A stretch of DNA of 34,695 nt from Candidatus Bipolaricaulota bacterium (GCA_025061735.1 JANXAU010000068.1:1-34695); one strand, 5' to 3'. Numbered from the stretch's first letter, positions 382 through 29,162 are shown. The notes: generated from the letters alone by a model not told the origin. Translations and numbers: made by a program.

Positions 382-398
382 CAAGGAGGTTGGTGCGC

Positions 399-3290
399 GT
401 GCGCGTAGCGCTTATAGTCATTCTAGCTCTGTTAGGGGGCGTATGGGGAGCGGTAGCACAACAATATGCAGCAGAGATCCTCGCGCCCCCGCCGCGCACC
501 GCTTCGCCCAACGACTTCGTCACGCTCGTCTTTGTCGTCTCCAATCGCGGTTCGGTCTCAGATACGTACGAGATTCGCGTCGAGACCCCGGAGCGCTTGC
601 AAATCGTCGGCGCACCCAGCACGACGCTGACGCTCGCCCCCGGCGCTCAAGAGCCGCTCTTCGTCACGCTCTTCATCCCGAACGACGCGCCCGCTGGCGA
701 TTACTTTATCTCTGTAGAAGCGCGCTCGCAGAACGATCCCAGAGTCCAGGCCCGCGCCCGTGCCCAGCTTACCGTCGTTGCTACTACGGGGATCGCCATT
801 CGCGCTCCCGATCCCAAAGAAGTCGAACCCGGCACCGAAGTCTTCTTGAGCTTCACCGTCATCAATCGGGGCAACGTCCTCGAGAGCGTGCGGGTGGAAG
901 CCACGACTCGTAGCGGCTATCCCACCAGCGTAGACCCCGCGCTCTTGGAGCTTCTGCCTGGTGCGTCCAAGTCTGTCTTGGTGAGCGTGAGAGTCCCCGC
1001 CGATGCGGCGCCGGGCTTTGAACCCGTCACGCTCACGGCCAGCTCGCTCGCGCGCGAGGGCGTCGGCGGCAGCGCAACGGCGACGCTCACGGTCTTGCCC
1101 CCGCTGCCCAAGAACGTCCCCACCGAACTCTTCTTGCGAGCGCCTGCCGAGCTGAGCGTCGGCGCTAATTTAGACCTGCCCAGCGCCAGCCTCACGCCGT
1201 TCATCTCGCTCTATACTGCAGCCACGCTCCCCGACGACCAGCGCTTCGCGCTCACGCTGCGCCTCAGCGAAGGGATTTATTGGCAGATTCTCGACTTCTT
1301 GCCCGTGTCGGTCACGGACTTTCTCTTTGAAAGCGAAGTTCGTGGCTTCTTTGTGCGTCTGGGCGACCTGCGCGAGCTGCCCTTGCAGATGCTCTCGCTG
1401 CCGCGACGTGGCGTCGAGCTAGGCGCGCGCGACGGCTTCTCGCTCTTGGTGACGTTCAACAGTCAAACCCCGTCACAGCGCTTGGTCTCACTAAACTTCT
1501 TGGGGCCGTTCCGCGCCGGCGTCTTGGGCTTGCAATCACCGGGGAGCACCCCGTACAGCCTCATGGGCGCGTACTTTCGCGGATCGTTTCTCATCGTCGA
1601 GAGCGGCATCTCCCAGAGCGCTCTGGGCACGCGCCGCATGGTCTTTATCCGAGCGATCCCCAGCTTCTATGGGATCATCGCGGGCTTTGAGTTTCTGCGC
1701 GTTGAGCCGGGCTTCCCCACCCTAACTGTTCCACCGGCTACTTTTACCGATGCCCAATCTCTTAGTATCTTTGGGGGAGGCGGGCTGGGGCCGCTCTCCG
1801 TCGCCTCGGTGATCACCAGCAGCTTCAACGATCTCTTTAACGATCCCAACATTCAAGAGATCGTCAAAGTGAGCGCCCAAGCGCGCGCTACGCTCTCCCC
1901 CCTCTTCCCCGGATTGCCCTATATGACTTACGATGCCCGCTTCTATTACGATCGCTCTAACGATCCGCCCTTCCCGCCCCTGAGCACCGACAGAATCTTT
2001 CATATGGTCTCGCTCTCAGAACTGTCCGGGCGCATCGGCTATATTCTCAACTTCATAGACAGCACGTTCATAGATAATCTGCTAAACGTGCAGACGAAGA
2101 CTCTGGAAGTCCGCAAGCTTGTCTTCGTCCGGCGCTTCTTGACCGATGGAGGCAGCGCCAGCTTGAGCATCAGATGGTCACGCTCCTTCGATCCCAATAC
2201 GAACATCACGTTTACAGAAGAACGCGATATACTCCTGAGAATCGTGTTCGCCACCCGACAGTTCTCCGTCTCGATGGTCGCGGGGCTTTCGGACAACAGC
2301 GGGCTGTATGGCTCTTTAGATTTTACTCTGCACGGCCCGATGACCGTCTCGTTCTTGATGACGTTCGCCGAGCCGACGTCGCTGGGCGTCAGCGTGCAGG
2401 TTACGACGCGCTTCGCGCTGCCCTTTGAGTCGGTCTTCGTCAAGGGCCGCATTGAGGGCTATCTCTTTATTGATCTGAATAATAACAGCAAGCGCGACCC
2501 CGGCGAACCCGGCATCGCTCAAGCGCTGCTCACGCTCGACGGCCAGTTGGCCCGCACCGACGAGACAGGCTACTTCCGATTCCCGCCCGTCGCTCCGGGA
2601 AGCTATAAGATCGAGATCAGCCGAATGCCCGTGGGGTATTCGCCCACGGTGACGCTGCCGATTGCCGTAACGCTGGGGGTCAATCAGATCGTGACGGTAG
2701 AGATCCCCGTGCGCCCCGTAGCGACGGTGCGCGGGCGCGTCTTTGACGACAAGAACCGCAACGGCCGACTCGACCCCGACGAGCCGGGCCTGCGCGGCGT
2801 GCGCCTCTTGGCCGTCGGCCCCAAGAGCTTCGAAGCGCGCACCGCCGAGGACGGCCAGTACCTGCTCCAGCTCGACCCCGGAACTTATACGATCAGTATG
2901 GATCGCACGACCCTGCCCAGACGCTACGAGCCGACGACCCCCCAGAGCGTCCCCGTGACGCTGCAGACGGGCCAGGTCGTGACGATAGACTTCGGCGCGG
3001 CCGAAGCCCCCAGACCCATTCTCTTCGCGCCCAACGCCGAGTTCTCTTACAGTCCGGCCCAGCCGCGCGCCGGCGAGAGGGTGACGTTTGACGCTTCGGC
3101 CTCCAGCGACAGCGACGGCCAGATCGTGCTCTACGAGTGGGACTTCGACGGCGACGGCAAGACAGACGCCACGGGCAAGATCGTCGAACATATCTTCAAG
3201 AGCGCCGGGACCTACTCGGTCACGCTGACGGTCACCGACAACGACGGACTGAAAGACACCGAGACGAAGACGATCTCCGTGCGACCATGA
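399..3290 (+). CDS. Large secreted surface protein: two NEW3 domains, β-rich middle, two SdrD-B-like domains, C-terminal PKD
   Basis: A signal peptide (about residues 1-20, ending near 'VAQQ') is followed by two NEW3-type β-sandwich domains (roughly 30-230). A long β-rich, barrel- or usher-like middle comes next (about 235-680). Two SdrD-B-like domains follow (about 685-775 and 780-865), each with an Asp/Asn calcium-type loop ('DLNNNSKRDPGEPG' and 'DDKNRNGRLDPDEPG'). A PKD domain ends the protein (last 85 residues, 'YEWDFDGDGKTD'). The start is a choice: AAGGAGG at 383-389 abuts TTG 390, leaves 3 bases to GTG 393 and 9 to GTG 399; I prefer 399. The stop overlaps the next start (ATGA at 3287). 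It probably acts at the cell surface or outer membrane. Usher-like function is inference only. Confidence 0.85.
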   Translation: MRVALIVILALLGGVWGAVAQQYAAEILAPPPRTASPNDFVTLVFVVSNRGSVSDTYEIRVETPERLQIVGAPSTTLTLAPGAQEPLFVTLFIPNDAPAGDYFISVEARSQNDPRVQARARAQLTVVATTGIAIRAPDPKEVEPGTEVFLSFTVINRGNVLESVRVEATTRSGYPTSVDPALLELLPGASKSVLVSVRVPADAAPGFEPVTLTASSLAREGVGGSATATLTVLPPLPKNVPTELFLRAPAELSVGANLDLPSASLTPFISLYTAATLPDDQRFALTLRLSEGIYWQILDFLPVSVTDFLFESEVRGFFVRLGDLRELPLQMLSLPRRGVELGARDGFSLLVTFNSQTPSQRLVSLNFLGPFRAGVLGLQSPGSTPYSLMGAYFRGSFLIVESGISQSALGTRRMVFIRAIPSFYGIIAGFEFLRVEPGFPTLTVPPATFTDAQSLSIFGGGGLGPLSVASVITSSFNDLFNDPNIQEIVKVSAQARATLSPLFPGLPYMTYDARFYYDRSNDPPFPPLSTDRIFHMVSLSELSGRIGYILNFIDSTFIDNLLNVQTKTLEVRKLVFVRRFLTDGGSASLSIRWSRSFDPNTNITFTEERDILLRIVFATRQFSVSMVAGLSDNSGLYGSLDFTLHGPMTVSFLMTFAEPTSLGVSVQVTTRFALPFESVFVKGRIEGYLFIDLNNNSKRDPGEPGIAQALLTLDGQLARTDETGYFRFPPVAPGSYKIEISRMPVGYSPTVTLPIAVTLGVNQIVTVEIPVRPVATVRGRVFDDKNRNGRLDPDEPGLRGVRLLAVGPKSFEARTAEDGQYLLQLDPGTYTISMDRTTLPRRYEPTTPQSVPVTLQTGQVVTIDFGAAEAPRPILFAPNAEFSYSPAQPRAGERVTFDASASSDSDGQIVLYEWDFDGDGKTDATGKIVEHIFKSAGTYSVTLTVTDNDGLKDTETKTISVRP

Positions 3291-4024
3291 AGCGTCGGGC
3301 GCTCGTGCTCGTAGCTGCAATCGTGCTAGTGACCGGGGGCTTGGCGCTCTGGTGGGGCGTGTGGCGCGGCGAGTTCGTCAGCGAAGAGCGCACAGGGGCG
3401 CTGCGCGTCCAACCTCAAGCAAGAGCGATCGCGGCCCAGCCCGATGACTTCGTCACGCTCGTCTTCGTCGTGCAGAACGAGAGCACGGTGTTACGAGCGC
3501 TCTCGCTGCAAGCCGAAGCGCCGGCGGGGTGGGCGCTGCTAGAATTTCCCAACGAGATCGCGCTCGATGCGGAGCAATCCCAAGAGATCTTTCTCACGGT
3601 GCAGATCCCGCCGGGGACGCCGCCGGGACGCTATCTGCTCGCGCTCAAAGCCCAAGACGCCTCGGGGAGCGCTCTGGGGCGAACGCAGATCGCGATTCCC
3701 GCCGTAGAAAGGCTGAAGCTGACACTTCCCAGAGAGCAGCCGATGCTCCGCCCCGGTGAGGAGCGCGCGCTTGCGGTGACGGTGACCAATCGAGGGAACG
3801 TGAGGCTGAACGTTCAGATAAGCGTGACGGCGGCGCCGGCGGGCTGGCGCTTCTCGCTCTCTCGAGCTTCTGTGAGTCTAGAGCCGGGGCGAGCCGAGTC
3901 GGTCGAGTTGCGCCTCCGAGCGCCGGAGCGTGGGCTTGCGGCCCCGGCGGTCTTCTCGATAGAAGCCGTTGGCGGGCGAGCTAGTGAGAGAGCGACCGTT
4001 ACGGTAGTCTTGGCCGCGCCGTAA
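3287..4024 (+). CDS. Membrane-anchored or secreted protein with two NEW3-type domains
   Basis: The 245-residue product begins at the ATG of an ATGA overlap with the preceding gene, so the two are translationally coupled. A hydrophobic segment (about residues 5-25, ending 'LALWWGVW') is an anchor or uncleaved signal. Two β-sandwich repeats follow, each with the NEW3 pattern ('FVVQNES...APAGW...IPPGTPPGRY' and 'VTNRGN...APAGWRF...L.APE'). The first repeat is closely related to the first NEW3 domain of the upstream protein, even at DNA level. No enzymatic motif is visible. It is likely an accessory of the upstream surface protein. Confidence 0.8.
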   Translation: MKRRALVLVAAIVLVTGGLALWWGVWRGEFVSEERTGALRVQPQARAIAAQPDDFVTLVFVVQNESTVLRALSLQAEAPAGWALLEFPNEIALDAEQSQEIFLTVQIPPGTPPGRYLLALKAQDASGSALGRTQIAIPAVERLKLTLPREQPMLRPGEERALAVTVTNRGNVRLNVQISVTAAPAGWRFSLSRASVSLEPGRAESVELRLRAPERGLAAPAVFSIEAVGGRASERATVTVVLAAP

Positions 4025-12566: not shown

Positions 12567-15500
12567 ATGCCTTCATGGACAATATGGGTGCTTGCGGGAT
12601 TGGCGGCGTTGGGGATCTTTCTGGCTTGGCCTGCCTTTGTTGAGCCAGGGGCATTGGTCGTCGAGAGCGAGAGGATCTCTCAAAAAGAGTTTCAGGAGGC
12701 CTACGACAGGCTGATCGCCCAGTTGGGACGCACCTACGCCCAGGTTGGCCAAGACTTCGGCAAGCTCTTGGTGGGCGTGGGAGGGCTGGAGCGGCGCTTG
12801 GAACTGCAAGCGCGCGTCTTGGACGATCTCATCAGAAAGAGACTGATCGCGCGCGAGCTGCGCCTTCGTCAGATCGTCGTCCCCGAGGGGGATATTAACG
12901 ACCGCACCGAGATCGAGTTGGAGCGCATTCTCAGGCAGAATCGCTTGACAGAGGCCCAAGCCGACGAGATCTTGAAGTCACAAGGCAGCAGCCTTGCTCA
13001 GTTCAAGCGAGAGCTGCGCGACGTTGTGGCAATCTATATGCAGACCGAGAAGCTGCGCGATCACGTCGTTGGGACTCTCCAACCGAGCGATTCGGAACTC
13101 TCGGCTTATTTGGAGAAGAACCGTGACAAGTACGACGAACCCGAGCAAGTACGCGCGCGGCATATTCTCATTCGGGTGCCCGAAGGGGCCTCCGAAGCCG
13201 AGGTAGCCAAGGCCAAACAACAGATCGAGCAGATTCGCCAAGAGCTAGAGAAGGGCGCAGACTTTGCAGAGCTGGCGCAAAAATACTCCCAAGATCCCGG
13301 CAGCGCCAGGAACGGCGGCGATCTGGGCTTTTTCCAGCGCGGCCAGATGGTCCCCGAGTTTGAAGAGAGCGCGTTCACGCTAGAGATCGGCGCGATCAGC
13401 GAACCCGTGCGCACGCAGTTTGGGTTTCACTTGATCAAAGTCGAAGAGAAAAAACCCGCAAGACAGCCCGCGCTGGCCGAGATCCGCGACCGCGTCTTGC
13501 AAGATTACATCGAAGACGAGCGCCAAGAGCGCTTCGAGGCCTGGTACAAGACCACCAAAGCCCAAGCGAAGATCACCATCCGTGAGCCGTTGCTGAGCAT
13601 CTATTATCTTCTGGAACGCGAGCAGAAGCTCGAGGAAGCGCTCAACGCTTATGAAAAGCTGAGAGATGCTTATCAAAAAGCGCATCTGGCCCGCGTCAAG
13701 ACCAAGCAACTGCTCCGAGAAGAAGAGAGCACACAAGCGCAGCAGCGCAAGATCGAGATCGTCGAGCTATGGCTGGCGCAGATGGTCGCGCTCAAAGACT
13801 CCGAAGAGCGCGCCCAAGTCGTGCAACAGATCATCCAGATCAAGCCAGAGACGATTCCGGGGCGTCTCTTCTTTCATCTGAGCGTGCGCGCCGACGCGCA
13901 AGAGCTGGCCAACACGATCCTAGCGCTGCAACAGCGCTTGCACCGCTACGGGATCCCTCAGAGCACGATCGTGCCCGCGGGCCCAGCACAGCTGGCCGTC
14001 TGGCTCGCACTCCCCAACGAGATCTCAGCTGAAGCCGTGCGACGACTGCTCCAGACGCGTGGCCTCATCGAGCTGAAGCGCGTGCTGCGCCTGGGGCAAC
14101 CCGGCGAAGACCTCCAAGCGACGGGTCTGGGACAGCAAGTGCTCAAGGACCGCAGCGCGAGCGAGCAGCCGGGCCAAGGACGGCACTTGATCGTCGTAGA
14201 GAAGCCGATTGTAGAGAGAGTCCTGCTGAAAGAAGCTCGCGCTCAGACAAACCCTACGGGAGAGTCAGCGGGGCCCATCGTGCGCCTGCGCGTCGCCGAG
14301 CGCACCGTCGAAGCCCTCGCCCAAGCGACGGCTACCTTCGCAGAGAACGAGCTGATCGCGATTGTGATCGACGGAGTCGTCTACTCGACGCTCCCGGTCA
14401 CCTCAAGCCTCAAGCAATTGCTCGCGGCCAAGGGCAGCACCCTCGATGTGCAAATCGAAGAGGCTCCCTCCGTCTCGCTAGACGAAGCCAACGCCTTGGC
14501 GTTCGCGCTCTCCAGCGAGCCACTGCCAACGGCCATACAGATTCTCTATCCCCTTCAAAAACCCGAAGAGAGGAGCTCGAAAGATATGATCAAAAGAACA
14601 GAGCTGATCCCCCGCAAAGCGCTCTTTTCCAATCCCGATAAGGCAATGCCGCGCCTCAGTCCCGATGGCCATCGCTTGGCGTTTCTCGCGCCGGTCAACG
14701 GCGTGCTCAACGTCTGGGTCGGCCCAGCCGACACCCCCGACCAAGCCCGGCCCGTCACCCAAGACACCAAGCGTGGCATCCGGGTCTTCTTCTGGGCCTA
14801 TACGAACAAGCATATTCTCTATCTCCAAGACAAAGACGGCGACGAGAACTGGCGCGTCTACAGCGTCAATCTAGAGACCAACGAGACGAAAGACCTTACG
14901 CCCTTGGAGAACGCGCGCGCCGAGATCCAAGAGGTCAGCCGCAAGTACCCGCATGAGATTTTGATTCTGCTCAACGACCGCGACCCGCAAGCGCACGATC
15001 TCTATAGAGTGAACATCGAGAGCGGGGAGCGCGAGCTGTTGCTCAAAAACGAAGAGGGCTTTATAGGGTTCACTACGGATGAAGAGTATCGTGTTCGTCT
15101 AGCGATGCGCTTTGCCCCCGACGGCGGCAGCGAACTGCTACGGCGCGCCTCCGATGACTCGTGGGAGAGCTTCATCCGAATTCCCTACGAAGACTCGCTC
15201 ACGACGTGGCCGATTCAGTTTGATCTCTCGGGGAACTATCTGTACATGGTAGATAGCCGCGGGCGCAACACCTCGGCATTGGTTTCGGTGCACGTAGGAA
15301 CGGGCGAGCAGCGCGTGCTGGCCGAAGACCCGCAAGCCGACATCAGCGACGTGATGATCCATCCCACGCAGAAGCGCGTCCAAGCCGTCGCCACGACCTA
15401 TGAGCGCAAGCGCTGGCAGCTCTTAGATAGCGACCTGCAACAGGATTTTGAGTATTTACGCACGCTCGCCGACGGGGATATAGAAATCGTCAGTCGTTCT

Positions 15501-16538
15501 CTGGACGACCGGCGCTGGATCGTCGCGTATCTGTTGGACAACGGCCCGGTGCGCTACTATCTCTATGAGCGCGAGACGCGCACGGCACGCTTTCTCTTCA
15601 CGAACAGAAAAGCGCTGGAGGGTTTGGTGTTGGCCAAGATGTACCCCGTCGTGATCGAAGCGCGCGACGGATTGAAGCTCGTGAGCTACTTAACGTTGCC
15701 GGTGGAGTCCGATCCCCAGCAAAGCGGGCGGCCTCAGCAGCCGCTGCCGATGGTCTTGTTCGTGCACGGTGGCCCGTGGGCGCGCGATCATTGGGGGTAT
15801 CATCCGTATCACCAATGGTTGGCCAATCGCGGATACGCCGTGCTCAGCGTCAACTTTCGCGGCTCGACCGGATTTGGCAAAGAGTTCGTGAACGCGGGCA
15901 ACCGCGAGTGGGGCGGCAAGATGCACGACGATCTCGTGGATGCCGTCCAGTGGGCCGTGAAGAATAAAATTGCTGATCCTAACAGAATCGCGATCATGGG
16001 GGGCAGCTACGGCGGCTATGCGACGCTGGTGGGCTTGACGTTCACGCCCGATCTTTTTGCGTGCGGCGTGGATATCGTTGGACCGTCCAATCTGGTCACG
16101 TTCTTGAACACGCTGCCGCCCTACTGGGCGCCCGCGATCGAGCTGTTCGCCACGCGCGTCGGCGATCACCGCACCGAAGAGGGGCGCAAGTTCTTAGAAT
16201 CGCGCTCGCCCTTGACGTACGTAGATCGCATTCGCAAGCCGCTTCTGATCGCGCAAGGGGCCAACGATCCGCGCGTCAAGAAATCCGAATCCGATCAGAT
16301 CGTCCAGGCGATGCAGGCCAAGAAGATCCCCGTGACGTATGTGCTCTTCCCCGACGAGGGGCACGGCTTCGCACGCCCTGAGAACAACTTGGCGTTCAAC
16401 GCTATCGCCGAAGCGTTTCTCTACCGCTGTCTGGGCGGGGAGCGCTACGAGCCGATCGGAGATGACTTCAACGGTTCGAGCGCCACCGTTCCTGTAGGGG
16501 CCGACGAAATCCCCGGACTTCAAGAGAAATTAAGATAG
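12567..16538 (+). CDS. Fusion: membrane-anchored parvulin foldase + SecD P1-like domain + S9 (prolyl oligopeptidase-type) peptidase
   Basis: A 1323-residue frame contains three units. A membrane anchor (5-25) and SurA-type N-domain lead into a PpiC/parvulin domain (about 193-293; H199 in 'RARHIL', 'GGDLGFF', 'FGFHLIKV'), a prolyl isomerase. Residues 433-660 resemble the SecD periplasmic P1 region, ending '[18 protein letters not shown]', but without SecD membrane segments. Residues 674-1323 are a complete S9 peptidase: β-propeller ('[16 protein letters not shown]'), then α/β hydrolase with S1147 ('GGSYGGY'), D1234 and H1266 ('DEGHGF'). GGGGG before ATG 12567 serves as ribosome binding site. 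An internal ribosome site and ATG at 14586 match the usual start of free-standing S9 peptidases. Whether this is one protein or two is open. acnA follows after 20 bases. Confidence 0.85.
14571..14588 (+). promoter_or_regulatory. Internal ribosome binding site and start codon for the S9 peptidase part
   Basis: AGGAG (14571-14575) stands 10 bases before an in-frame ATG (14586-14588). The residues that follow ('[20 protein letters not shown]') look like the natural N-terminus of S9 peptidases. The ATG is part of ATGA: a TGA in the +1 frame lies at 14587-14589, the same overlap style used by other gene pairs here. Confidence 0.55.
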
Positions 16539-21832: not shown

Positions 21833-24800
21833 CTAGAAATTAATCCCCATCTGCGCTTGGAGGAAGAGGCTGTGGCTCCACGGCGCACGCGCCGCCGGCT
21901 CCCATCTCCCGCTGTACCCCAGCGTCGCCGACAGATTGCACGTGCTCTCAACCAAGCCCGGCGCACACGCTACCCCCAAATCGTAGTCGCCCTTGAGCAC
22001 CAACTCCCAATCAGCCGTTTGCACCGGCTTTTGATCCCGCACCCCCAGATTGAACGCCACGCGCGCATCGAGCGTCAATCCCAACTCTTCGAGAGGATTC
22101 CAAGCGCTCTGACTCCCTAGCTCATAAGTCTGCGTGCGCTCGCGCTCGCTAAGGGTCATCTGCCAGAAGAGATCGCCCCCCGTGCGCCACGCCCCCGGCG
22201 GATCCCACGAGAGCAAGAGCCGCACCCGCGACCGAAGCGTCTCTTTGCGCCCCAGCGTCGGATGCACGAGCGTATCCAACGAAAGCCCCAGATCGGCTCT
22301 GGGCTTGAGTTCTGGACTGAGCGCCCACTCGATATTGGCGTTTAAGTCTTGCCGAATGAGATCGCGCGCCGAGCGCACATCCGTGGAGAAGCTCTGCTTC
22401 AGCACGAGCGACCCGGAGAACGGTTGCCACAGCGCCGTCACGCGCCCTTCGGCAGAGAGCGAGAGAGCACCACCCTTCTCTTGGGTTCCCAAGGGCAGAT
22501 TGCGCCGCGCCGAGAGAACCAGAGTCGGCGTCAGCTTGGCCGTCGCGATCACAACATCGCTAAATCGTAAGTCGGCACTAGCGTTCTCGTCGAGGGAGCC
22601 GCGCCCACCGGGGAGGCGCTGGCGCATCGCCCGCGTGTACGACGTGCTGAGCTTGGAAAAGCCCAGATCGTACTGCCAATCGCCCCCAAGACTCCACGAG
22701 AGATCGCCGTCGCGGCGCGCCGGCGCGTTACGCACCCCCGGACTGACGCGCTCGCTAAACCCCAACGTTCCTTTGAGTTTTAAGCTCGGTGTCAGCGCGA
22801 GCGTCGCGTTCAGAGTGAACTTAGAATCAAAGAGCGCGCGTGCCAATGCTCCGCCGGTGATCGCGCCGTCGTAGGCCGCGCTGACCGCCAGATCTTGCGC
22901 CAACGGCATCAGATGCGCGATGTTCAGCTTGTGCTCAGCTTTGAGGCCATAGGCCCATTTGCTCGTGTCAAAGCCCGTTGTGCGATCAAAGCGATTCTGA
23001 TCTAAAAGCTCTAGAGAGAGCGTGCCGGTGAGCATGGGGCCGGCTCCCCACGGTTGCCATTGGGCACGCAGGGTATCGCTCATCGAGAAGGTTCGAAATC
23101 TCTGAGAGAAGCCCATCGCGTGTTCTCCAGAGAGCGTGAGATTGCTGAACAGAGGGAGGCTCGCGCTCAGTTTGAGACGATGGGCGTCTTGGCGCTCTTC
23201 GCGCCCGATCGCCGAGAACTCCGGGACGACGCTCTCTACAGACGCTCGGAGATCGAGCGTGCCCAGCTTATACTCGGCGCTGAGCTGGGCCAGCCAGCCC
23301 CGATCGGTGTTCTGGTCGGCCGAGATATCCGCAAACCGAAACTCATCTCGCCCGTTCAGACGCGTCTGCGCCTGAGAGTACTCCGTGACAGTGTTGTCTA
23401 TCTGCCACAGGGGCATCTGATAGGTCTCTTGGGCTTTGGGGCCGACCCACATCGAAACCGTTGCTGGCGCGTTCTTTTCTAACGCCGTGATCGCATACTC
23501 TTGCACGACGGGCGTGTCCGACGTCACGCGAAAGAGCCCGATCTCCGCGCCGTACCAGAGTTCGTCTCGCCATACAGAGAGGCTCAACACCGGCAGATCC
23601 TCGACGACCCAATCCACCCCCTGACCGGCGAAGAGCCGATAGACGCCGCGCTGGGTAGCCGCATAGACCGTCGCGCCCGCAGCCACCAGATCGTTGATAG
23701 ACTCGCCCTGTAGCTCTGAAACAGCTTCAAAGCGCTCCGTAGCGGGATCGAAGACGAACAGCCCCTTGTCGGTGCCCACGTAAAGCTTTGTGCCATCGTG
23801 AGCCAATCTCACCACGCGATCGCTGACGAGCCCGGGGGCGTTCGCTCGCTTATAGCTCTTCCATGCGCTCTTCTCTTCGATCTGCGCGAGAGAGACGCGC
23901 GCCAGGCCCTCGTGCGTAGCAACCCAAAGCACGCCGCTCTCGTCGAGCAGCACGTCGTTGACGGTGTTGTGAGGCAGCCCATCTAGTCTATAGAAGCGTT
24001 TCCAATTGACGGGTTTGGCTAGGCTGTCCAGCAGCGGGCGTCCCGGCTCCAGCCGCACCAGCGATAGCCCAGAGTCTGTCGCTAGGAGCAGGGCGTTTCG
24101 CGCGACGGCGATCCCGCGCACGCCGCGGCCCGACAACCCGTGCGCCGTCGTGAAGTCTTGCCAACGGGTACCGTCGAAGACGAGCAGCCCGTTCTGATGG
24201 CCAAACAGAACAACGCGCCGGCGCTCTTGCGCCAGCGAAGCGATCACGTTGATTTGATTGACTTGGTTGCGCCGCTGGTTCTTCCCCGACGGAAAGATAT
24301 TATTAGCGTAGCCGAGCTTGAGCTGAGACTGTAGATCCCCCAAGTCAAGATGGGCTTTGACGCCGAAGACCGTGTGGGCGTTGGGCATGGTGCGCAGGCG
24401 CTCTTTGTTCTCTGCGGGAGGAGCGCTATCGGCGGCGCGCAGGGCATCGAGCGTGACGGTCAGAAACGGCCACGGCGACCAGTCGAGCGAGATCCCCATA
24501 AACGTCCGCTGGTGCTCGGTGAAGCCCCCCAGCCCGCCGCGCATGAGTTCATACTCGATCTTCAGCTCGTCCTGCTCGGTGAGCGCGTCGTGCGGCGGCA
24601 GAAGCAAGAGCGCTCCGGTCTCGTAGTCTATCTGATAGTCCACGTCGCGCTTGAGCAGCCTGTTGTTGAGATAGACGCGCTCGCTGTTTTGCAAGACAGA
24701 TAAGCCCAGAACGTAGAGTCCGCCGGAGACGGCGTAATCGAACGTCACGCGCACTTCGCTGCGCGGATCGCGAAAGTACTCCTCGGGGAAGTCAAGAGCC

Positions 24801-25969
24801 AGCACCCCCTGCTCGGCGAAGAGCGCGAAGTTATACTCGGGAAGCTCCAGATCGGGAAGCGTGACGAACGCCTCTTGGCGCTTGATCTCTAGTTTGAGAG
24901 TCTCTTCTTTAACTTTCTCTCGGCCGAGCGAGAAGAACCGTCCGCGCTGAGCGCTCCCCAACGGATAGCCCTCTGTTCCCACTTTGAGTTGGACTAACTT
25001 GACCAGACGATTGAAGAAAGCTCGCTCGTAGTCGGTCTCTTCGGCCAAGGGGTACTCTTTGGCGTCATCGCCGAAGAGATCGTGCTCGTCGTTGTACTCG
25101 TCAATATACGCGCGCAGTTGATCGCGCAGCAGTTCTAGGGTAGCGCGGCGGAGCAGCAAGAAGTTCTTGCCGTTCTCGCTCAGCACGTCATACAGACCCT
25201 CTTCGAGTTCGGGCTCGGGGTCTTGCTCGATCATTTCATAGAGATAGCTCAGGCCGTAGTCGTCCAAGAGGGCTCGCAGCTCTGAGCCGAGCTGGAAGCG
25301 CAGCGCGACGACCGTGAACCCCGGCACGTAATTCTGCAGCGAGAAGTACTCTAGCCCTTTCAGGCTTCTCAGATAGCTAGCCTCGGTCCAGGGGCGCTCC
25401 GGATCGTTGAGGGTGAAGCGCACCGTCTCGCGCGCGGTGTTCCCCCTAAAAACGCGGCTCTCGGCGATCCCCTCCACGCGCGCCAGCTTCCCCGTCAACG
25501 CCAAAGATTCTGAGATCTTCCACGTGACGATCAGCCCTTTTAAGAGTCTATCAGCGACGACGAACTCCGAGCTGCCCTGCGCCATCGAGAAATCTTTGAA
25601 CGACGCTTCGAGAGACTCGTTCTTGAAGCCAAAGGCAAAGCTTTGAAGATTGCCGCTCTTGCGGTTATCTAATTGCGCGCTGACGCGCAGCGTCCCCTTC
25701 AACGGCCAGGCGACTTCGACGCCCGCGTCGAGCGTGAGCGCGACATACTGCTCAAAGAGCAACTGATTGGCGTAGCCGCGACGCGACAGCTCACGCGAGT
25801 CCCCCAGCCCGTACTTGACGATCCAACCCAGCTCCCCAAAATAGCTAATATCCAAGGGCGTCTCTTCGGGCGGGCTTGGGGCTTTCGCAGGAGGCTCTTG
25901 CGCCAATCCCACCCCGCATCCAAAGATCAACAGAAGAGTCAGAGCGAGAAGATCTCTTGAGATCCTCAT
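21833..25969 (-). CDS. Very large outer-membrane β-barrel protein with SprA-like strand motif and internal regulator-type β-propeller
   Basis: The 1378-residue protein has a signal peptide (1-23, 'GVGLAQ'). The N-terminal half is β-rich; about 400-475 carries 'RVYLNNRLLKRDVDYQID' and 'YETGALLLLPPHDAL', a repeat typical of SprA/Sov-like surface proteins. Residues 575-835 form a two-component-regulator-type β-propeller ('DGLPHNTVNDVLLDESGVLW', 'YVGTDKGLFVFD'). The remainder (about 880-1378) is amphipathic β-strands ending in Phe ('QMGINF'), the usual outer-membrane insertion signal. Regulator-type propellers also occur in PorZ of the type 9 secretion system. AAGGAGG precedes ATG 25969. It is the last gene of a three-gene minus-strand operon. 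A secretion or attachment role is inference. Confidence 0.8.
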   Translation of the reverse strand: MRISRDLLALTLLLIFGCGVGLAQEPPAKAPSPPEETPLDISYFGELGWIVKYGLGDSRELSRRGYANQLLFEQYVALTLDAGVEVAWPLKGTLRVSAQLDNRKSGNLQSFAFGFKNESLEASFKDFSMAQGSSEFVVADRLLKGLIVTWKISESLALTGKLARVEGIAESRVFRGNTARETVRFTLNDPERPWTEASYLRSLKGLEYFSLQNYVPGFTVVALRFQLGSELRALLDDYGLSYLYEMIEQDPEPELEEGLYDVLSENGKNFLLLRRATLELLRDQLRAYIDEYNDEHDLFGDDAKEYPLAEETDYERAFFNRLVKLVQLKVGTEGYPLGSAQRGRFFSLGREKVKEETLKLEIKRQEAFVTLPDLELPEYNFALFAEQGVLALDFPEEYFRDPRSEVRVTFDYAVSGGLYVLGLSVLQNSERVYLNNRLLKRDVDYQIDYETGALLLLPPHDALTEQDELKIEYELMRGGLGGFTEHQRTFMGISLDWSPWPFLTVTLDALRAADSAPPAENKERLRTMPNAHTVFGVKAHLDLGDLQSQLKLGYANNIFPSGKNQRRNQVNQINVIASLAQERRRVVLFGHQNGLLVFDGTRWQDFTTAHGLSGRGVRGIAVARNALLLATDSGLSLVRLEPGRPLLDSLAKPVNWKRFYRLDGLPHNTVNDVLLDESGVLWVATHEGLARVSLAQIEEKSAWKSYKRANAPGLVSDRVVRLAHDGTKLYVGTDKGLFVFDPATERFEAVSELQGESINDLVAAGATVYAATQRGVYRLFAGQGVDWVVEDLPVLSLSVWRDELWYGAEIGLFRVTSDTPVVQEYAITALEKNAPATVSMWVGPKAQETYQMPLWQIDNTVTEYSQAQTRLNGRDEFRFADISADQNTDRGWLAQLSAEYKLGTLDLRASVESVVPEFSAIGREERQDAHRLKLSASLPLFSNLTLSGEHAMGFSQRFRTFSMSDTLRAQWQPWGAGPMLTGTLSLELLDQNRFDRTTGFDTSKWAYGLKAEHKLNIAHLMPLAQDLAVSAAYDGAITGGALARALFDSKFTLNATLALTPSLKLKGTLGFSERVSPGVRNAPARRDGDLSWSLGGDWQYDLGFSKLSTSYTRAMRQRLPGGRGSLDENASADLRFSDVVIATAKLTPTLVLSARRNLPLGTQEKGGALSLSAEGRVTALWQPFSGSLVLKQSFSTDVRSARDLIRQDLNANIEWALSPELKPRADLGLSLDTLVHPTLGRKETLRSRVRLLLSWDPPGAWRTGGDLFWQMTLSERERTQTYELGSQSAWNPLEELGLTLDARVAFNLGVRDQKPVQTADWELVLKGDYDLGVACAPGLVESTCNLSATLGYSGRWEPAARAPWSHSLFLQAQMGINF

Positions 25970-25992
25970 ACTTCCTCCTTCTTAAAGGCGCT

Positions 25993-26802
25993 CTAGAAGA
26001 GATAAGTCACGGTCACGATGGTCGAAGCCGGCAGAAAGGGGTGCACCCGGTAGGCCCAATCTAGCTGTAAGCGCCCCCAGCGCACGCCCGCGCCACTCGC
26101 CACCGCGACCCCGTCGTAACCTACACGCATCCTCAAGCTGTTCACAGAGACCTCTACGCCCACGTGCAACTCCGGTCCTGTGAGCAGCCTCCAGATGTCC
26201 AGCCCTAAAGAGAGAGTCCATTGGGGGTGGATCGCCCAGATCAGCCCCGTCCCCACGCGCAGATCGAGAGAGCTTTCTGTGCTGAAGAGATCGTGCACGA
26301 ACGCACCCACGCGCACAACCCCTAGCGCGACACGAGCCGCGACGTCTATCGCAAAGCGCGTCTGCGCTGGGGTCTGATAGAACTGCACGCGCCCCCCTAT
26401 AGCGAACAGCTCGCTGCCCAGCGCCAGTCCGAACAAGCCTAAGCGCTCAAAGAACCCCGTCGCCATCCCCGTGGGATTGCCAAATTCGTTGGTCGCTTCG
26501 GCAGACCCCGTGTCAATCTGTAGAATCTGCAGGCCAACGCTGCGCATCGCGCCGCCGACCCCAACGTGATGGACGACCTCAAAGACGCGCTGATAGAAGA
26601 GCGAGAGCCGAGGGCGCTCTAGAATAGCTAAAGCCGCGGGATTGTAGAAGAGCGCGTTCTCGTCGTCGGCGAGCGCCACGAGCGCCCCGCCCAGCGCAAC
26701 CGCCCGCGCGCTCGACCCGATCTCCAAGAGCGGGGTCGCCCCAGAAGCGCCGACCCCGAGCATCAAGACCATCACAACAATAGCTGTGCCCAGTCTGCGC
26801 AC
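25993..26802 (-). CDS. PorV/PorQ-like (UPF0164-type) outer-membrane β-barrel protein
   Basis: The 269-residue protein starts at GTG 26802, with AGGAG eight bases upstream overlapping the protease stop codon; the longer upstream frame would only be shadow sequence. After a signal peptide (ending near 'GASGATP') comes the family hallmark 'SARAVALGGALVALADDENA' with 'LFYNPAAL', followed by repeated amphipathic β-strands to a terminal Phe ('VTVTYLF'). PorV and PorQ belong to the FadL-like barrels that shuttle or attach type 9 secretion cargo in Bacteroidetes; homologues occur in other diderm phyla. It sits between a protease with a sorting-type C-terminal domain and the giant barrel protein. Confidence 0.85.
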   Translation of the reverse strand: MRRLGTAIVVMVLMLGVGASGATPLLEIGSSARAVALGGALVALADDENALFYNPAALAILERPRLSLFYQRVFEVVHHVGVGGAMRSVGLQILQIDTGSAEATNEFGNPTGMATGFFERLGLFGLALGSELFAIGGRVQFYQTPAQTRFAIDVAARVALGVVRVGAFVHDLFSTESSLDLRVGTGLIWAIHPQWTLSLGLDIWRLLTGPELHVGVEVSVNSLRMRVGYDGVAVASGAGVRWGRLQLDWAYRVHPFLPASTIVTVTYLF

Positions 26803-26813
26803 GAATCTCTCTC

Positions 26814-29099
26814 CTAGCGTTGGATGATAAGCCGTTGGGGGAGGCTGGAGCGCCCGTCGGCACGAAGAAGCGCGATGTACAGCCCCGGCGGAAGCCGCCG
26901 GCCCTCTTCGTCGAGCAGGCGCCACTCGAAGCGCTGGCCCTGGGGCAAGAGCGCCTGACGAAAGACCCTTCGGCCTACCAGATCGAAGACCAAGAGTTCG
27001 ACGCTCTGCGCGGGTTTGGGGCCTACAGCATAGAAAAAGACCGTCTTGTCCAGGGCGGGATTGGGGCCGATCTTGAGGGCCGGACGCCCCTGCTGCAGTT
27101 GCTCGACCAACCCCAGCCCGTCGAAGCCGCGCGCGATCTGGAGCTTGCCCGCTCCCCAGCCCATCAGCGGCCCCTTCTGGGTGAACGCGTCTTGGAGGGC
27201 CGTCTGGGTCAATTGCCGGCGAATCTCAGCAACGGTCAAGCGCGGGTTGGCCTGAAGGAGCAACGCGACGGCCCCGGCGACATGAGGAGCGGCCATCGAA
27301 GTCCCCTGCATGGCGACGTACTCGCGTCCGGGCAAGACCAATTTATCGTTAGAGGCAAGCTCAGACTCTTTAGCCAGAGCAGAGACGATGGCCGTGCCGG
27401 GGGCGACAAGATCGGGCTTGAGCCGCCCGTCGCGCGTCGGCCCGCGCGCGGAGAAGCGCGCCAGATCGCCTTCGCTCTGCAGATCCAAAAACCGATGGGG
27501 CAATCCATCGGCCCCTGTCCAGTAGATCTTCGTCGTGTACGCGCCCACGGCAATAATCTTCTCCGCTGTGGCCGGCTCGGTCACGGTCTTGTCAGAGTCC
27601 CCTTCGACAAAATAGCCCATCGTAGATAACCCCGGCCAAGCGTCGAACCTTGCGCCCATGCCCTGGTCGTTGAGCGTGATCTTCCAAGGGGTGCCGGGCT
27701 GCACGCTCTCTAGCGAAATGGAGATCGCGCGATCTCTGTTGCGCGGGTCGGGGCCACCGCTGGAGTTGTCCACGTAGATGCGCCCGTCGGGGGTCTGCGC
27801 CGAGGCGCTCGAGCCGCGCACCGCCAGCGCCGCTTGAGAGGGGCCGCGCAGCCCCGGCGACGCGACCGAGACCAGCAGATTCGCCTCTCCAGAGTACCAG
27901 ATCGTCAACAGTGCCGTCTCTTCGTTGGGCACAAACGTGAACGTGAACGATTCTCGCGGCGCCAGACGGCCTCCGATGTGCACGGGGCGATCTCCGTCGT
28001 TGCCCGCCGACGCGACGATCACGCGACCGGGACGATCTAAGAAAGACTCCAAGCCACGCTCCAACAGACTCGTCCCGTCGTGCGGGCCAAAGTGCCCCCC
28101 TAGACTGAGATTGACCACGGCGGGCCGCCCCAGCCATTGGGCTTTTTCAAAGATATAGCGCGTCCCTTCGATGATATCTTGGCTAAAATAGCTCGTCTTG
28201 ACGGCGATCATCTCGGCTTGGGGGGCCATGCCGACGTACAGCCCTCCCGACGCCGAGCCGTCACCAATAGCCGTTCCCGCGACGTGCGTGCCGTGCCCCT
28301 GCTCGTCGCGCTGGGGCACGCTGCCGAGAGCGCCTCTGAGAGCGCGCTCCAAATCTTCACGGGTGTACTCCGTGCCGAAGGGCACCCTCTGCGGGCTTCC
28401 AAAATAGCCCGTCTCGGTCTGATCCCAAAGCCAGACGATCCGCGAAGACTCTTCGACGCCATCGCCGTCGCGGTCGTAACGAAAGTCTCGGTGAGTGAAA
28501 TCGAAGCCCGTATCTACGATCCCAACGATGACACCGGCGCCGGTGGCTGCGGGCGCGGTCTCGTGCAAGAAGCGTCCGCCCACGGCGGGGACGCTCACGT
28601 CGGTCTGAGGGGCCAAGCGATAGTTCGCTTCAACGAAGACGACGTGCGGGAGCGCCGCCAGCTCGCGCAACTGTTGAGGAGCGACGCGCGCGCTGTAGAG
28701 GTCTTCGGTCAAGCGCTCGAGCGTGTGAAGCCCGGGCAGATCGTGCGGGTGTAACGGCCGGGAAGTCTGGACGAGAACGCCGATCTGTTGGGGATCTGTT
28801 TGGCGCGCGGCGGTGGGGCTTAAGGGGCGGGCCGACGCGAGCGCGGTGCTCTCGTAAACGGCGATCACATGGGCGAAGGGCGCCAGATGCAGAGCGCGGG
28901 CAGACTCGGCCGCGCGCTGAGCTAAGATCTTCAAGAAGGGGTCAAGCTTCGCCGAATAATGATAGCCTTCTGAATAATTTTGAAGAGAAGAAGACGACGA
29001 AAGAGAATCTCGCGGGGGCAGAGAAGAGGCGCTGCCGAGCAGAAGCAGCAAGACGAGCGCAAAGAGCACGAACCCGTCGGCGCGCAACCGGCCACTCAC
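26814..29099 (-). CDS. Secreted subtilisin-like serine protease (S8) with T9SS type A-like C-terminal domain
   Basis: With the start at GTG 29099 the protein has 761 residues. A signal peptide ('FVLFALVLLLLLGSASS') leads into a propeptide, then the S8 triad: D196 ('GIVDTGFDFTH'), H269 ('GHGTHVAGT') and S601 ('GTSMAAPHVAG'). A long insertion separates His and Ser. The last 85 residues ('IGPNPALDKTVFFY', 'VFDLVGRRVFRQ', 'RLPPGLYIALL') match FlgD-like/T9SS type A sorting domains. The frame extends to 29162, but that part contains the promoter -10, so it is untranslated. GGAGG lies 11 bases before the GTG. It is first in an operon with a PorV-like gene, and may be its cargo. Confidence 0.9.
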   Translation of the reverse strand: MSGRLRADGFVLFALVLLLLLGSASSLPPRDSLSSSSSLQNYSEGYHYSAKLDPFLKILAQRAAESARALHLAPFAHVIAVYESTALASARPLSPTAARQTDPQQIGVLVQTSRPLHPHDLPGLHTLERLTEDLYSARVAPQQLRELAALPHVVFVEANYRLAPQTDVSVPAVGGRFLHETAPAATGAGVIVGIVDTGFDFTHRDFRYDRDGDGVEESSRIVWLWDQTETGYFGSPQRVPFGTEYTREDLERALRGALGSVPQRDEQGHGTHVAGTAIGDGSASGGLYVGMAPQAEMIAVKTSYFSQDIIEGTRYIFEKAQWLGRPAVVNLSLGGHFGPHDGTSLLERGLESFLDRPGRVIVASAGNDGDRPVHIGGRLAPRESFTFTFVPNEETALLTIWYSGEANLLVSVASPGLRGPSQAALAVRGSSASAQTPDGRIYVDNSSGGPDPRNRDRAISISLESVQPGTPWKITLNDQGMGARFDAWPGLSTMGYFVEGDSDKTVTEPATAEKIIAVGAYTTKIYWTGADGLPHRFLDLQSEGDLARFSARGPTRDGRLKPDLVAPGTAIVSALAKESELASNDKLVLPGREYVAMQGTSMAAPHVAGAVALLLQANPRLTVAEIRRQLTQTALQDAFTQKGPLMGWGAGKLQIARGFDGLGLVEQLQQGRPALKIGPNPALDKTVFFYAVGPKPAQSVELLVFDLVGRRVFRQALLPQGQRFEWRLLDEEGRRLPPGLYIALLRADGRSSLPQRLIIQR

Positions 29100-29133
29100 T
29101 CGTTCTCGATCCTCCACCTCGGCAAGATGCGCT

Positions 29134-29162
29134 ATTATATACCCCCCAGACACGAGGGGCAA
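29134..29162 (-). promoter_or_regulatory. σ70-type promoter (TTGCCC-17-TATAAT) for the protease-PorV-barrel operon
   Basis: On the minus strand TTGCCC (29162-29157) and a perfect TATAAT (29139-29134) are 17 bases apart. Transcription would start near 29127, leaving a leader of about 27 bases before GTG 29099. This is the reason for rejecting the longer protease start. Confidence 0.65.

Follow-up and report, generated by a model that had tools for sequence, protein, structure and literature searches.

Three tightly spaced genes in a 34,695-nt stretch (the window; contig C26) of a Candidatus Bipolaricaulota genome (1.64 Mb, 93% complete) very probably encode the outer-membrane core of a reduced type 9-like secretion system. 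They specify a subtilase with a C-terminal sorting domain (CTD), a PorV-family carrier and a barrel of the SprA/Sov family (Table 1). The identities of pore, carrier and sorting signal, their genetic linkage and their conservation are established at the level of sequence comparison and predicted structure; export, docking, the order of events and a PorU-like role of the protease are inferred. This supports the interpretation of the locus given in an earlier note, with corrections concerning its self-containment and the genes that are missing, and the guess made there that the host lies outside Bacteroidota was right.

Table 1. Operon features, numbered from the first letter of the window
Feature	Position	Strand	Basis
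Sigma-70-type promoter, TTGCCC-17-TATAAT	29134..29162	-	Consensus scan, 10/12 matches; direct sequence reading
Secreted S8 subtilase, Asp/His/Ser triad, C-terminal sorting domain	26814..29099	-	Peptidase_S8 E 2.2e-48; triad motifs; start inferred
Protease CTD, T9SS-type sandwich of seven strands	26817..27080	-	Model pLDDT 92; PorU/PorZ CTDs nearest folds; PorU CTD profile E 1.1e-9
PorV-family outer-membrane carrier, 269 aa, signal peptide	25993..26802	-	NF033709 E 1.3e-15; PorV 6h3i_F profile E 1.6e-13
SprA/Sov-family outer-membrane barrel, 1378 aa, inserted propeller	21833..25969	-	TIGR04189 E 6e-9; hhalign SprA E 5e-18; ortholog model
SprA-homologous N-terminal part of barrel, residues 44-578	24236..25840	-	hhalign 459 columns, E 2.7e-18
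Reg_prop/PorZ-like beta-propeller inside barrel, residues ~579-850	23420..24235	-	Reg_prop E 3.5e-4 (over cut-off); PorZ_N_b_propeller E 0.008; PDB propeller chains E 1e-24
C-terminal barrel strands ending in Phe, residues 858-1378	21836..23395	-	~24 strands in ortholog model; terminal Phe in nearly all full-length orthologs

The closely spaced minus-strand genes lie where they had originally been placed and form a tight operon, with 11 nt between the protease stop codon and the carrier start and 23 nt between the carrier stop codon and the ATG of the barrel gene. Two start codons required revision: the TTG at 29162 first assigned to the protease falls within the -35 box, the GTG at 29099, preceded by GGAGG, being the likelier choice, and the carrier start is moved from 26925 to the GTG at 26802. 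The promoter reported upstream is located at 29162-29134 and its position fits; its mere presence is not above chance (three TTGCCC-17-TATAAT-type sites in the scan vs 1.9 +/- 1.5 in shuffled sequences).

The barrel contains the only match in the genome to the NCBIfam SprA model (residues 414-537), with a score of 33.6 that lies under the cut-off of 200. For profile-profile comparison, an alignment of 16 orthologs was split into parts and run with hhalign against SprA sequences from Bacteroidota, Calditrichota, Latescibacterota, Gemmatimonadota, WOR-3 and Firestonebacteria; an 8-row alignment was used for the collection scan. The N-terminal part matched the SprA set at 99% probability and the whole barrel matched over 498 columns. 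The barrel profile also retrieves SprA proteins of the several phyla in this set, together with intermediates from Aerophobetes (1573 aa) and Firestonebacteria (~1770 aa). No sequence match to SprA was obtained by hhalign for the C-terminal half alone, and the profile found only propellers among PDB sequences, not SprA. The gap between the barrel and SprA is bridged by profile-profile comparison together with fold, not by sequence alone.

The fold was predicted with AlphaFold2 for an ortholog that is 29% identical to the window protein and from which the last 35 residues were removed (1200 residues, 31-row alignment; pLDDT 85, pTM 0.66). In this model a mixed domain interrupts a first set of ~12 strands; the propeller follows, and then ~24 more strands, for a total of ~36 when the removed end is included (counted from the DSSP string, plus or minus two). 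When compared with 350,542 PDB chains using Foldseek, the SprA chains 8gl6_A, 8gl8_A, 6h3i_A and 6h3j_A occupied ranks 1-4 (E 1.2e-18 to 1.2e-9; query-normalised TM-score 0.48), and the next barrel, LptD (E 7e-7), reached one third of the SprA TM-score. Outer-membrane barrels typically terminate in Phe, and this residue is found at or beside the C-terminus in the full-length barrel orthologs. SprA itself has 36 strands and a lateral opening on which PorV docks (PMC10994853).

Both tests for membership of the SprA family, sequence homology to SprA and a giant barrel of SprA fold (the latter in the ortholog model), were met, and the window barrel is, on profile and modelling evidence, a diverged member of the SprA/Sov family, as its description as a 1378-residue barrel with SprA-like strand motifs had anticipated. 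Like the SprA/Sov translocon (6h3i, 8gl6, 8gl8), it has the homologous N-terminal part, a predicted giant barrel of ~36 strands and a PorV partner, and is encoded in single copy. It differs in its length (1378 vs ~2500 residues), in the propeller inserted into it, in falling under the equivalog cut-off and in a C-terminal half without sequence similarity. The propeller had been described as regulator-type, as in PorZ, and indeed matches both Reg_prop and PorZ_N_b_propeller (Pfam/NCBIfam, residues 660-780).

For the second gene, a PorV/PorQ-like barrel had been proposed, and matches to PorV were obtained with both the PorV/PorQ family model NF033709 and the solved structure of the SprA complex. 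The NF033709 score of 57.8 is under the NCBIfam cut-off of 90, a value that carrier orthologs from Bacillota exceed. A profile of the carrier family aligns with the PorV chain 6h3i_F in two collinear stretches that cover most of its length, so that our test for a PorV carrier, PorV homology along the entire barrel, is passed. The genome contains four PorV-family genes, three of them directly downstream of a CTD gene (in the window and twice on contig C59). In its profile match and near full-length alignment the window protein resembles the PorV/PorQ carriers. Unlike them, the family has several members in each genome, and the genes of some immediately follow that of a particular CTD protein, an arrangement also seen for PorP/SprF carriers of type B cargo. 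In Flavobacterium, dedicated carriers for such cargo are encoded directly downstream of the cargo genes (PMC12618676).

The operon protease, correctly described before as subtilisin-like, is an S8 subtilase with a complete Asp/His/Ser catalytic triad. Some relatives (L070, L073) lack the usual Ser and His motifs while the S8 domain is still recognised, and the enzyme may be inactive there. Its last 88 residues form the CTD, which by itself stays under the Pfam and NCBIfam thresholds and was established through family alignment and fold. A 39-row CTD profile retrieved the PorU CTD first and then FlgD (E 2.2e-4), as well as PorZ and two T9SS substrate CTDs. The predicted structure has seven strands, and its nearest solved folds are those of PorU (TM 0.73) and PorZ, in line with the T9SS type A-like domain postulated at the outset. 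The glycine between beta3 and beta4 that is conserved in T9SS CTDs is invariant here. T9SS CTDs are seven-stranded sandwiches (PMC10994853), and those of PorU and PorZ are uncleaved (PMC11285876). The system resembles that of P. gingivalis in that the CTDs of PorU and PorZ are the nearest to that of the protease and in its PorZ-like propeller; it differs in having an S8 subtilase in place of a C25 cysteine peptidase, and in carrying the propeller within the pore protein.

A search for further proteins with this domain, suggested in the earlier note, yielded ten in addition to the window protease. In all 11 the CTD runs up to the stop codon or ends immediately beside it, which fulfils the expectation that a T9SS exports more than one secreted protein with a CTD as its very last domain. 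Matches of single proteins among them to the PorU CTD, TIGR04183 and CHU_C are under cut-off. They include three subtilases, cohesin-PKD proteins, and DUF11, FG-GAP and beta-helix proteins. The operon is not the self-contained unit that had been envisaged, as these further CTD proteins and PorV paralogues sit elsewhere in the genome. Two candidates within the window were rejected: a 966-aa protein (390-3290), whose BLAST match to CTD proteins is to a PKD domain, and, along with it, the ORF at 3137-4024 as a PorV.

Could these be surface proteins that have merely borrowed their domains and take no part in export, that is, a FadL-type pore, a protease with a FlgD-like Ig tail, and a SprA-domain barrel serving, for example, as a receptor or sensor? 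PorV and FadL do share a fold (the carrier matches the FadL-type Toluene_X model at E 5e-4), the CTD has FlgD as its next-closest relative, and the propeller is of the type found in two-component sensors. However, PorV outscores FadL, PorU CTD outscores FlgD, and the ortholog model matches SprA before any other fold over the full extent of the barrel. Given also the strictly C-terminal placement of every CTD and the conserved operon linkage, we regard this explanation as improbable.

Orthologs of the barrel occur in Candidatus Bipolaricaulota, Acetothermia and Fraserbacteria, the nearest being 84% identical. The barrel was found in 73 of 80 related genomes, including all 36 of high quality, and nearly always in single copy. 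Among 40 relatives, 37 have the PorV family and 38 have CTD proteins (2 to 102 matches per genome); both are present in all 23 high-quality genomes. The order protease-PorV-barrel is retained at 28 of 39 loci according to a strict script and at ~30 of the 39 on inspection. Among these loci are those of the Bacillota (Limnochordia-type) MAGs L084 and L093; the order is rearranged in L083. For one of these Bacillota MAGs contamination is unlikely because nine of 17 genomes of its class have the barrel; our tree does not separate vertical descent from transfer for the Bacillota copies.

Three further occurrences were observed. A contig filed under Neomarinimicrobiota (L078) carries the whole operon, groups with Bipolaricaulota in the tree and is probably misbinned. 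A Thermotogae MAG (L096) shows a full N-terminal barrel match on a very long branch. Saganbacteria/Margulisbacteria (L109, L113, L121, L124) encode a barrel of 1330-1390 aa in which the SprA-type DYTIDY motif occurs up to four times, its gene convergent with that of an S8 subtilase bearing a CTD-like tail; no PorV adjoins the Saganbacteria barrel loci.

By analogy with the characterised systems, proteins with a Sec signal peptide and a C-terminal sorting domain would reach the periplasm, from where the SprA-type barrel would serve as their pore. The PorV-family carrier would then dock on the pore, take over the sorting domain and bring the protein to the surface. The PorZ-like propeller, part of a separate attachment protein in P. 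gingivalis, would here be built into the pore. The operon protease may be a resident surface enzyme in the place of PorU and might trim other cargo. Whether it is instead merely cargo, its place in the operon reflecting co-expression and not a PorU-like role, is a close call on which we lean slightly towards the resident enzyme: two other CTD subtilases are encoded at distant sites where no carrier gene accompanies them, and the catalytic motifs are changed in some relatives, but the same type of protease stands beside the barrel in nearly all relatives and in the Bacillota MAGs, with a divergent version in Saganbacteria, and its CTD is nearest to the uncleaved ones of PorU and PorZ.

Beyond SprA, PorV and CTD cargo, none of the core T9SS genes that a complete system would add was found in searches for C25, GldM and MotA/ExbB (PorK, PorN, PorL, PorT, PorP and PorW/SprE lay outside them). 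The C25 peptidase of the PorU sortase was found in none of 14 Bipolaricaulota genomes, with Bacteroidota, Calditrichota and Latescibacterota as positive controls. The GldM model was silent in the same 14, as it also was in SprA-bearing Calditrichota, Gemmatimonadota and Latescibacterota; this model does not reach past Bacteroidota, and its silence says little. Members of the MotA/ExbB/TolQ family were detected in eight of 14 control genomes and in none of the 14 Bipolaricaulota genomes, two of which are single-contig. With that family missing, the sample has no recognisable TonB, Tol or flagellar motor.

As the sortase test is not met and a motor is unproven, we do not class the operon as a T9SS; we read it as a reduced, possibly motor-less, T9SS-like system. 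A complete T9SS, with an energy chain and sortase so strongly diverged that current models miss them, seems unlikely to us. It gains some credence from the failure of the GldM model in other SprA-bearing phyla outside Bacteroidota and from the components outside our searches, yet C25 is recognised in Calditrichota and Latescibacterota and in none of the 14 Bipolaricaulota genomes, and the absence of MotA/ExbB/TolQ extends to single-contig genomes. The stronger form of the reduced-system reading, in which SprA-PorV-CTD secretion operates phylum-wide without a proton-driven envelope motor or C25 sortase, in bacteria that lack recognised LPS genes and are distant from Bacteroidota, can be put forward only tentatively. 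If it is true, the core would be older than Bacteroidota, and motor and sortase would be later additions. In Flavobacterium, energy is required at the step in which the pore lets go of the carrier-cargo complex (PMC10994853). The power source of T9SS becomes testable by comparison, since here that complex would have to leave the pore without a known motor.

The T9SS has been stated to be restricted to Bacteroidota (PMC4793230; PMC7463736) or confined to FCB phyla and absent elsewhere (PMC11285876). A SprA-PorV-CTD core in Bipolaricaulota and some Bacillota MAGs changes this published restriction and shows which parts may be essential. In the literature searched, which excluded subscription papers and preprints, T9SS was mentioned together with Bipolaricaulota or Acetothermia only incidentally. 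For a closed genome of Bipolaricaulota type, the envelope has been described as being of unclear type, with no LPS genes, and the passages on surface properties retrieved by a term search mention no such secretion system (PMC6092417). The phylum, whose envelope type that account leaves open, gains a candidate secretion route.

Two further observations concern the same genome. A 1323-aa ORF in the window (12567-16538) combines a prolyl isomerase of SurA/PPIC type with a SecDF P1-like segment and a prolyl oligopeptidase of family S9; in L057 only a 672-aa ORF matches it. Two CTD proteins with cohesin-like domains come with PorV-type carriers of their own, and dockerin-like repeats are present in two further CTD proteins (loci L039:447-3894, L189:4984-7176 and L186:1072-5094); it is possible that cohesin-dockerin pairs assemble a surface scaffold.
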